A stretch of DNA of 59,423 nt from Bacillota bacterium (GTDB lineage: Bacteria; Bacillota; Sulfobacillia; JAJZYS01; JAJYTV01). The stretch covers positions 1 to 59,423 of the forward strand of contig JAJYSJ010000015.1 of assembly GCA_021793645.1 (NCBI GenBank), written 5' to 3'. The position numbers were made by a program, and so were the translations under genes. Of this stretch, positions 54,822 to 59,423 are shown one piece after another; within the stretch, counting starts at the first letter, position 1; every line of letters begins with the position of its first letter. A model generated the notes under the pieces. It made no database searches. It saw only the letters and a list, made by a program, of their open reading frames with translations, and was not told the DNA's origin.

Positions 54822-55703
54822 CTACATGAGACCCTGCGCCCGCAAAAGGTGCTGCAAGAACTCCTCTTCCGCTGCGCTTGGCGGCGCGAGCGGCCCTCGT
54901 ACTCCGCCGATGTCCCGCCCGCACAAGCGCATCGCCCACTTCAGCGGGACCGGATTCGACGTGACGAAAAGACCGGTGAACAGTGGGAGAAGCCGCAGGT
55001 GGATCTCTTGCGCCAGGTGCACATGGCCCGTGACGAAGGCTTCAATCATGCGGCGGATCTCAGGGCCAACGAGGTGCGATGCGACGGAGACAACACCGTC
55101 CGCTCCGACCGAGAGCAGCGGCAGCGTCAGCTTGTCGTCCCCCGACAGCACCGAAAGGTCGCCTTCGCGACCGCGCAGGATCTCGGCGGCCTGCTCGAGG
55201 TTGCCGGACGCCTCCTTGACGGCTACGACATTGGGACAGTCTCTGGCGATGCGCAGCACAGTGTCCGCGGCGAGGTTCTGGCTGGTGCGCGACGGCACGT
55301 TGTAGAGCATCACCGGCAGGCGCGTCGCCTCAGCGATCGCACGAAAGTGCCTGTAGAGTCCCTCCTGGGACGGCTTGTTGTAGTACGGAACGACGAGCAT
55401 CACGCCATGCACGCCAGTGCGCTCCGCAGCCTGGGTCAGTTGGATGGAAGCGTTCGTATCGTAGTTCCCCGTGTTCGCCCAGACGGTGGCGCGATCTCCC
55501 ACGGCATCGGCGACCGCCTCGAACAGGCTGATCTTCTCCTCCGTCCCCAGCGTTGGCGATTCACCGGTCGTACCGGCGACGACGATTCCGTCCGAACCAT
55601 CGTCCACGAGCCGCTGGGCAAGGCTGCGCGACTTCGCTAGGTCAAGTTCAAGCTCCGCGGTGAATGGCGTGGCCATGGCTGTCATCAGTCGTCCGACCGG
55701 CAT
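54822..55703 (-). CDS. dapA: 4-hydroxy-tetrahydrodipicolinate synthase
   Basis: 293 aa TIM barrel, first step of the lysine/dipicolinate branch (pyruvate plus aspartate semialdehyde). Seen: GTTGESPTLGTEEK, catalytic tyrosine in PVMLYNVPSRT and Schiff-base lysine in VVAVKEASGNLEQ. In this locus it supplies the precursor for spore dipicolinic acid. ATG at 55703 with AAAGGGGG upstream. Confidence 0.96.
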   Translation of the reverse strand: MPVGRLMTAMATPFTAELELDLAKSRSLAQRLVDDGSDGIVVAGTTGESPTLGTEEKISLFEAVADAVGDRATVWANTGNYDTNASIQLTQAAERTGVHGVMLVVPYYNKPSQEGLYRHFRAIAEATRLPVMLYNVPSRTSQNLAADTVLRIARDCPNVVAVKEASGNLEQAAEILRGREGDLSVLSGDDKLTLPLLSVGADGVVSVASHLVGPEIRRMIEAFVTGHVHLAQEIHLRLLPLFTGLFVTSNPVPLKWAMRLCGRDIGGVRGPLAPPSAAEEEFLQHLLRAQGLM

Positions 55704-55747
55704 GCGGCTACCCCCTTTGCACACAGCGCGGGTCAAGGGTCAGATGA

Positions 55748-57993: not shown

Positions 57994-58110
57994 CTAACGT
58001 CCGATCAGCAATGGCTGGACCTGCCGACCCTCCAGAGATGCCACAACGGCGTCCGGTAGGCGGCTTAGATCAGCGGCGACCGAGTTCGGCTTGGTCGAGG
58101 GATTATCCTG
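57994..58110 (-). pseudogene. dpaB: 3' fragment of dipicolinate synthase subunit B (dpaB/spoVFB), separated from its 5' part
   Basis: Too short to stand out as a gene. The minus-strand frame starting at 58110 reads QDNPSTKPNSVAADLSRLP, then DAVVASLEGRQVQPLLIGR and a TAG stop at 57994-57996. This matches the C-terminus of DpaB, whose family motif is FGQDNPxxKPNSxVA and which ends with ALxGKQxQP. There is no start codon, and the frame upstream runs into the recombinase gene. Location just before asd is where dpaB ends in Bacilli. Interrupted rather than decayed: all 38 codons look intact, so it is likely restored by excision. Confidence 0.88.
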
Positions 58111-58112
58111 CT
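58103..58112. other. Predicted recombination junction (attachment site) in dpaB
   Basis: Minus-strand sequence around GAGCAGGATAATCC. The DpaB codons CAG GAT AAT begin at 58110, while the recombinase frame uses the same bases as GCA GGA TAA, its stop. Upstream of 58110 the frame encodes GLE instead of the expected PFG, so the join lies at or within a few bases of 58110. The exact crossover dinucleotide cannot be set without the other end. Confidence 0.6.
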
Positions 58113-59423
58113 CTAACCCGGTGATGCGCAAACTTCTTGGAACCCGTGTCTGGCCCGGCAACTGGAAACTTGGCCGTCACTGTCACCCGTCCGTCCGAAT
58201 CCACTTCTATCCGCTCGACAAGGCCTCTGAGCGCTGCTTGCTGCTCGGAGAACGGCATGGACTCAAACTCGGCTGCGACAGTGAACGTCTCAGCGATCAG
58301 GTCCATACTGATCGCGTCCGACTTGGTGAGCCGAAGTCTTGCCTCCACGTCCCGAATCTCCCCCTCAAGCGCAGCGATGCTCGTCTCCAGTCTCCGCTTC
58401 TCTGTGTTCAGTCGACTGCGATCCCAATCACCAGACAAGAACAGTTGCAGTAATCGCTCCTGCTTCCGCTTGAGAGACCCAAGCTGTTCAGAGAGCTCGC
58501 TGCGCTTCGTCTCGAGTTGCTTGGCGATCTTCCGGTCGCCTGCCTGCCTAATGAGTTGCCGGCGTGCCGTTGGAGACGTTGCGATCCTGACGAGTTGCTC
58601 ACGGACGTGCGCGTCAATGGTTTCCGTCCGATGCGCTGCTCGGCATTGAGATCCGTCGGGCAGCGAGGCGTTGCGGTGCCCTCGAACATGTCTGTAGTAG
58701 TGATACCGATGGATCGTAGCCGCGCCGCGTTTCACGGCGGTCGTCGGGGATAAGAGATGCCCGCAGGCGCTGCAGTAGACGATTCCCGCCGCCAGGCCGA
58801 CTGTACTCTCTAGTCTGGATTTCTTGTTCTGAGTGCTTCTGGCGTTGAGAACGCGGTTACAAGCCTCCCACAAATCCCGCCCGACGATCGGTTCGTGTGC
58901 AGCGTCAACTCTGATTTGCTCGCCGCCAACCTCCGTAACGATATCGCCTGCATACACGGGGTTCCGGAGCACGTGGACGATGAAGCCTCCGTCGACGTAC
59001 TTGTTTGGAATGCGGTCACTCGTCACCACGGCAATACGTCGGCTGCCCATTTTACCCTGAGCAAAGAGATTGAAAATCTCCCGCACTAGTGGCGCCTCCG
59101 CCGAATGGGGTTCAAGATGTTGGGTGTCTGGGTTTCGTCTGTAACCGAAAGGAAGCCGACCCAACCACTCTCCCCGTTTGGCCGCTGCAGCGCGTCCTCT
59201 GACCATCTGCCGCACGACCGTCTTTCGGCGACGCCGGTCAATGATCGCCATGATGTCGGCGGTGAACTCGTCGTCCTCGTTGCCGAAATCCACCTCGCCC
59301 GATAATGTGTATAGCTTGATTGAGTAGTCCCTGAACGTCTGCTTGAGAATCGCCCACGGAATCTCGTCCAAGCGGCTCAATCGGTCTTGCTCGGTGACAA
59401 GGACAGCTTCGGCCTCGCCGTCC
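58103..59423 (-). CDS. Large serine recombinase (5' end beyond window)
   Basis: 440 codons visible. The reading frame enters from the window edge with AVLVTEQDRLSRLD, the conserved DRLSR helix of the resolvase catalytic domain; the catalytic serine lies outside. Next come a recombinase domain (GRLPFGYRRNPD to VYAGDIVTEVGG), a zinc-ribbon with CSACGHLL and a later SQC, a coiled coil (KIAKQLETKRSELSEQLGSL and on) and a C-terminal domain. The stop TAA is made by the first codons of the dpaB fragment. Base composition is less G+C-rich than the neighbours. Probably the excisionase-type recombinase of an element inserted in dpaB. Confidence 0.92.
   Translation of the reverse strand, partial: DGEAEAVLVTEQDRLSRLDEIPWAILKQTFRDYSIKLYTLSGEVDFGNEDDEFTADIMAIIDRRRRKTVVRQMVRGRAAAAKRGEWLGRLPFGYRRNPDTQHLEPHSAEAPLVREIFNLFAQGKMGSRRIAVVTSDRIPNKYVDGGFIVHVLRNPVYAGDIVTEVGGEQIRVDAAHEPIVGRDLWEACNRVLNARSTQNKKSRLESTVGLAAGIVYCSACGHLLSPTTAVKRGAATIHRYHYYRHVRGHRNASLPDGSQCRAAHRTETIDAHVREQLVRIATSPTARRQLIRQAGDRKIAKQLETKRSELSEQLGSLKRKQERLLQLFLSGDWDRSRLNTEKRRLETSIAALEGEIRDVEARLRLTKSDAISMDLIAETFTVAAEFESMPFSEQQAALRGLVERIEVDSDGRVTVTAKFPVAGPDTGSKKFAHHRVRAG

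Follow-up and report, generated by a model that had tools for sequence, protein, structure and literature searches.

The product of dpaB (spoVFB) is required for the synthesis of dipicolinic acid (DPA), a spore chemical. The locus analyzed here raises the question of how a bacterium might use a dpaB gene of which only the last 38 codons stand in place, next to the gene of a large serine recombinase. The locus lies at the end of a 59,423-nucleotide stretch of DNA (the window), which is contig C80 of genome G000 (3.40 Mb in 94 contigs). A sequence-only reading of the window had proposed that an element interrupts dpaB and that developmentally regulated excision restores the gene. We followed up this proposal in the window's family (f1), which is uncultured and comprises G000 and nine other species, and in its class (154 species). 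All f1 genomes are metagenome-assembled, and from their isolate names we guess that they come from acid mines.

Results

A startless 3' piece of dpaB adjoins a serine recombinase gene

On the minus strand of the window, a frame of 38 codons plus stop (57994-58110; codons, 58110-57997; stop codon, 57996-57994; QDNPSTKPNSVAADLSRLPDAVVASLEGRQVQPLLIGR) lies directly upstream of asd and lacks a start codon. Its match to positions 151-187 of TIGR02852 (spore_dpaB; E value, 1.5e-9) bears out its earlier identification as the intact C-terminus of DpaB. Past this piece the gene order is asd (57975-56959, minus strand), a conserved downstream neighbour of dpaB, then lysC and then dapA (54822-55736, minus strand), also a conserved neighbour.

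On the other side of the 3' piece, and in the same orientation, is the frame for the C-terminal 439 residues of a large serine recombinase (58103-59422, minus strand). The contig stops at 59423, so that this frame is open there, about 64 N-terminal residues are missing, and most of the element lies outside the window. The recombinase is 69% identical to a full-length homologue in G001, which contains the Pfam Resolvase and Recombinase domains. The claim that it ends inside the first bases of dpaB proved accurate, as its frame runs into the 3' piece and closes with the codons GCA GGA and the stop codon TAA (58103-58111), i.e., with the attachment core followed by the first dpaB bases. The stop codon of the recombinase is supplied by host dpaB both here and at the equivalent loci of relatives (L053, L060, L061, L065, L066, L067 and L069). 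Judging from these sequences, integrated and circular elements would encode different recombinase C-termini, with the circle losing the core-encoded stop. Since the junction between the recombinase and the dpaB 3' piece recurs in contigs of other species, it did not arise by chance.

The 5' half of dpaB lies on other contigs of the same genome

Pieces representing the first 156 codons of dpaB were found on two other G000 contigs, C84 (3910-4377) and C2 (136092-136556), and both end at PFG, exactly at the junction. C2 (136.6 kb) also carries the only dpaA of G000, so that dpaA and the 5' fragment ending in PFG, both of which the sequence-only reading had predicted, are present. On C84 (11.9 kb), the 5' piece is followed by element DNA (TTCGGGCA|CTCGAAGCCG), which represents attL. 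C2 terminates in TTCGGGCAGGATAATCCC, where the 5' piece runs on without a break into the first bases of the 3' piece, and the 13-mer GCAGGATAATCCC has exactly two copies in the G000 genome, one at this end of C2 and the other in the window. Between the C84 and C2 5' pieces there are 13 replacement and 64 synonymous differences, which makes them separate copies, and either may be the one that belongs with the 3' piece in the window. The end of C2 is compatible with an excised form in the population or with an element-free copy, for which its ten bases are weak evidence.

A complete dpaB frame, which would have marked the window's piece as a dead remnant, was not assembled in the G000 genome. 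The host also carries the sporulation genes spoIVA, over its cut-off, and sigK. Genomic evidence of this kind extends to the relatives, with spoIVA over the cut-off in all f1 genomes and in G030, a member of another family, and sigK in most of them.

Attachment sites and in-frame rejoining

The attachment sites have the form TTCGGGCA|CTCCAAG (attL) and GAGCA|GGATAATCC (attR), and across the family the only core common to the two is GCA (58109-58111, minus strand, in the attR of the window). The earlier proposal that CAGGATAATCC is a core repeated at both ends of the element was therefore not upheld; CAGGATAATCC behind a 5' half is to be read as the mark of the joined form. Within GCA, which is also the centre of an inverted repeat, CA (58110-58109) is the likely crossover dinucleotide. 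Aligned in register with the attL arm of C84, the element-side arm (P arm) of attR in the window (58111-58136, minus strand) pairs at 18 of 26 positions, as against 2-8 in shifted alignments. Arms of attR and attL from different contigs of G000, G004 and G008 likewise form an inverted repeat, with 15-19 of 26 positions matching in register and CA at the centre, against 1-11 for the deduced attP arms out of register. Random arm pairs reach 17 matches with a probability of about 1e-4, and this symmetry played no part in defining the element ends. A symmetric inverted-repeat attachment site used by serine recombinases has been stated for gin (PMC5595907).

When the flanks were joined, a 194-residue DpaB resulted in every attL/attR pair. 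The C84 5' piece and the window's 3' piece, which score 224 and 37.5 bits against TIGR02852 when unjoined, together score 275.5 bits against a cut-off of 229 bits.

Additional copies of the attL arm, following DNA other than dpaB, were observed inside the elements of G007 (L063, position 1846, minus strand) and G005 (L061, position 18649, minus strand), which suggests tandem or composite elements.

Distribution of the split

A dpaB match above the family cut-off was obtained in 102 of the 154 species of the class; within the class, a split at this site was seen only in f1 and in G030. One or both sides of the split were found in seven of the nine other f1 species, and the complete arrangement of recombinase, GCA, dpaB 3' piece and asd is present on six further contigs from five of these species, as well as in G030. 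Within f1, attR was recovered from G000, G001, G004, G005, G008 and G009 (two contigs) and attL from G000 (C84), G004, G006, G007 and G008; no f1 genome has both dpaB halves on one contig, and element B of G030 is the only complete dpaB element. The congener G003 has a natural, uninterrupted dpaB of 194 codons (site, TTCGGGCAGGATAATCC), and G002 yielded dpaB only as degenerate fragments, and a recombinase that is ruined. The order dpaA-dpaB-asd, which is seen in G010 and G011 of the same order and in most class genomes inspected, is not kept in f1, where dpaA stands beside other genes.

dpaB of G030 is interrupted by two elements

In G030, dpaB is in three pieces. Contig C9 contains codons 1 to about 104-108, followed by attL of element A, and contig C78 contains, in order, recombinase A, attR-A, the middle dpaB piece, attL-B, element B, attR-B, the last piece and asd. 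Element B (5.95 kb) encodes two Fic-domain proteins, a small protein and recombinase B. A shared 14-bp core and matching arms indicate that C9 and C78 are probably connected via element A, and joining the three pieces at their cores yields a full DpaB (296.5 bits). At site A (ATNACCGACA) the inverted repeat is a different one (TTAGCGTCAAAT...ATTTGACGCTAA). G000, G002 and G003 contain dpaB 5' copies, degenerate or cut, that also end at this site, at about codon 104-108 (L014, 16416-18077; L054-L058), and several are then followed by an AbiEii-type gene. As these copies end at site A in three f1 genomes, dpaB has been hit repeatedly, and elements may arrive with a dpaB 5' end that takes the place of the resident one.

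Selection and promoter of the dpaB halves

Values of dN/dS (Nei-Gojobori) of 0.02-0.12 among 5' pieces and of 0-0.25 among 3' pieces indicate that both halves are under strong purifying selection. Upstream of the 5' pieces is a promoter-like motif, CAC[CG]-N14-18-GCATAC[CG]AT, which we take to resemble a sigma-K promoter. A scan of 2.97 million bases (both strands counted, loci overlapping) gave 26 matches, all 26 of which precede dpaA or dpaB; the motif was derived from the dpaB copies, so that matches there are expected and the independent part of this result is dpaA of six genomes. In most pairs, dS of the recombinase was lower than that of asd (0.56-0.76 against about 1.1 for G001 and genus g2), from which it follows that elements have moved between species and that part of the purifying constraint may predate insertion in some lineages.

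Element cargo and a candidate directionality factor

Behind attL of C84 are arsenic genes (ArsR, ArsA and low-molecular-weight phosphatase types) and a broken recombinase (L015, 4372-11500), which is nearly identical to a recombinase fragment on C71 of G001 (start of L124). The cargo of f1 and G030 elements comprises arsenic genes, Fic proteins and BNR-repeat proteins. No phage structural genes were found among ten element proteins scanned with PHROGs, the window's own element being incompletely assembled; the matches were to integrase, to Fic-like proteins of unknown function and, over about 60 residues of one protein, to an endolysin type. A scan of viral contigs (viral_contigs) returned one distant recombinase with 25% identity.

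In several relatives, a protein of 74-76 residues with no Pfam match is encoded directly upstream of the recombinase and is a candidate directionality factor. Its gene is disrupted in G009b and C84 and has lost part of its sequence in G004, where a second copy is present on the same contig. In the recombinase promoter region only a CATA-type -10 block is conserved, and no -35 element could be assigned.

Other sporulation genes are cut beside serine recombinases

All PF07508 recombinases of f1 were listed and their ends were inspected. In G000, yhbH is divided into 300 and 77 codons by a 14,152-bp element (C28, 63896-78048), with both halves and both attachment sites present on the one contig (L222 and L225), the recombinase adjoining the 5' piece, GA as crossover and attP arms that match at 21 of 26 positions. 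The joined YhbH covers positions 12-371 of the 371 of TIGR02877, and it is a divergent relative, since its 225 bits fall below the cut-off of 468 bits. The 5' side of yhbH with a recombinase was also found in G002 and G008.

The sigK gene is cut at about codon 68. In G001, G002 and G008 the 5' piece lies close to a recombinase; 3' pieces are present in G008 and, as two copies, on C9 of G000 (L195, L196, L194, L154, L152 and L153). Joined sigK of G008 encodes 231 residues (340 bits; cut-off, 299), and its attP arms match at 19 of 24 positions. G000 has an intact sigK on C73, so the gene was not counted as split there, and sigK on C87 of G004, which is cut by contig ends, was left out of the count.

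In G010, which belongs to another family of the same order, the frame of a recombinase on C259 extends into a 3' piece that resembles sigK from about codon 112 (L189, 4792-5142). This is apparently a further skin-like split of sigK.

In two genera (G000, start of C2, L071 1-3346; G005, C49, L186), the gene of a PMR1-type Ca-ATPase is interrupted at the catalytic DKTGTLT motif, beside a serine recombinase. It is apparently split in the same way as dpaB, with one half seen; a motif search on C49 of G005 did not find the 5' half. The genes cut thus number three in G000 (dpaB, yhbH and the Ca-ATPase) and three in G008 (dpaB, sigK and yhbH).

We first suspected that spoIIID is split as well, because the stop codon of a recombinase abuts it in most f1 genomes. 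This was rejected, as spoIIID is nearly full length and the recombinase, which is cargo-free and directly precedes it in most f1 genomes (L206, L208, L207, L205, L202, L211, L209 and L210; divergent in G011, L203), is conserved in place. No opposite arm was found within 20-40 kb or more in three genomes, and this recombinase has perhaps been domesticated.

Discussion

We consider it probable that the recombinase excises the element and restores dpaB, and that this is programmed in the mother cell during sporulation. A non-phage integrative element would have been inserted by the large serine recombinase at CA in dpaB, after codon 156, where attB would read ...CCCTTCGGGCAGGATAATCC...; the same recombinase, probably with a directionality factor, would excise the element and so reconstitute a dpaB of 194 codons. 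Excision would take place at the mother-cell stage, as the analogous elements skin, SPbeta, vfbin and gin suggest (PMC5025042, PMC4191935, PMC5595907). Since DPA synthase belongs to the mother cell, which does not survive, excision there would cost the lineage nothing, which makes programmed excision in sporulation the most likely use. In-frame reconstitution, the geometry of the attachment sites and purifying selection are consistent with excision; we infer excision itself, its sporulation timing and the protein that directs it.

The element might instead be an ordinary integrative one that leaves dpaB sporadically, for transfer and free of developmental control, with DPA made only in element-free cells. 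The recombinases are indeed closer between genera than are host genes (G001 and g2), C2 ends in the joined form, G003 is uninterrupted and the arsenic-gene cargo looks adaptive. However, the split is kept in nearly all f1 species with both halves under purifying selection, and several mother-cell genes are hit rather than random ones, and we regard sporadic excision as unlikely. It is distinctly less probable that dpaB is simply broken, with its halves decaying and DPA lost or made otherwise. The degenerate 5' copies cut at the other site in G000, G002 and G003, and the condition of dpaB and the recombinase in G002, are what such decay would produce, but the frames of both halves are unbroken and their dN/dS is far below 1, G001, G004, G005 and G009 have intact recombinases, dpaA is retained in each of the ten genomes searched, and the dpaB 5' pieces still have the motif that they share with dpaA.

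Conservation of both halves would also fit a split protein whose parts are translated separately and then assemble. Separate translation of the 3' piece was rejected on the absence of a conserved start codon, and the bases before it, which encode the recombinase in a different frame, are not constant between species, which leaves this explanation with very little probability. An artefact of assembly or binning might be suspected from the metagenomic origin of all the genomes and from contig breaks near the sites. The junction, however, is located inside contigs of several independent assemblies (DX1, SKS1, HSP1, LSA3 and TPA clean5020), and its sequences are related but non-identical between them, so that an artefact is just as improbable as a split protein.

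Programmed excision in the mother cell has close parallels. Interruption of spoVFB by a recombinase element is already known from vfbin of Bacillus weihenstephanensis KBAB4 (Abe et al. 2013, via PMC4191935 and PMC10747680), which those accounts report to be excised in sporulation. As vfbin is described there, its host gene is the same as that of the f1 elements and it too carries a recombinase; vfbin contains phage-related genes (PMC4191935), whereas none were seen among the f1 and G030 cargo proteins tested, and the f1 host belongs to a different class and has a high G+C content. The gerE-intervening element gin of Bacillus cereus ATCC10987 (PMC5595907) resembles the f1 elements in being non-phage, in interrupting a mother-cell gene, in its serine recombinase with a small directionality factor (for which f1 has a candidate) and in its inverted-repeat site. 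It differs in the gene that is interrupted, in that the f1 cargo consists of arsenic genes, Fic and BNR-repeat proteins, and in that the f1 split runs through the family, several genes being cut per genome. The skin elements interrupt sigK in Bacillus subtilis and Clostridioides difficile (PMC5025042), as serine-recombinase elements do in G001, G002, G008 and apparently G010, with the f1 insertion differing in its position at about codon 68.

The f1 recombinases at the sigK, yhbH and spoIIID loci have weak NCBIfam matches to XisF, far below the cut-off. In Anabaena, nifD, fdxN and hupL are rejoined by excision of heterocyst elements in a terminally differentiated cell. The likeness is that several genes are rejoined by excision in one genome, as proposed here for f1, although the organisms and genes are unrelated.

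Excisions known to repair a sporulation gene concern single genes, mostly of Bacillus and Clostridioides. What sets the present case apart is a family-wide, non-phage set in a distant class, with several mother-cell genes cut in one genome and a gene that is in three pieces; no prior report of such a family-wide, multi-gene set was found in the literature searched, mostly outside subscription journals. The analysis supplies new recombinases with deduced attB/attP pairs, and comparison can now address why mother-cell genes are preferred as targets and how elements can endure in genes on which the host depends. Altogether, f1 bacteria probably rebuild several genes by excision during spore formation. 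We see about an even chance that the mother cell runs several independent programmed excisions per sporulation, each with its own serine recombinase (dpaB, yhbH and the Ca-ATPase in G000; dpaB, sigK and yhbH in G008), together with a dpaB joined by two excisions in a second family and a stand-alone recombinase fixed beside spoIIID.
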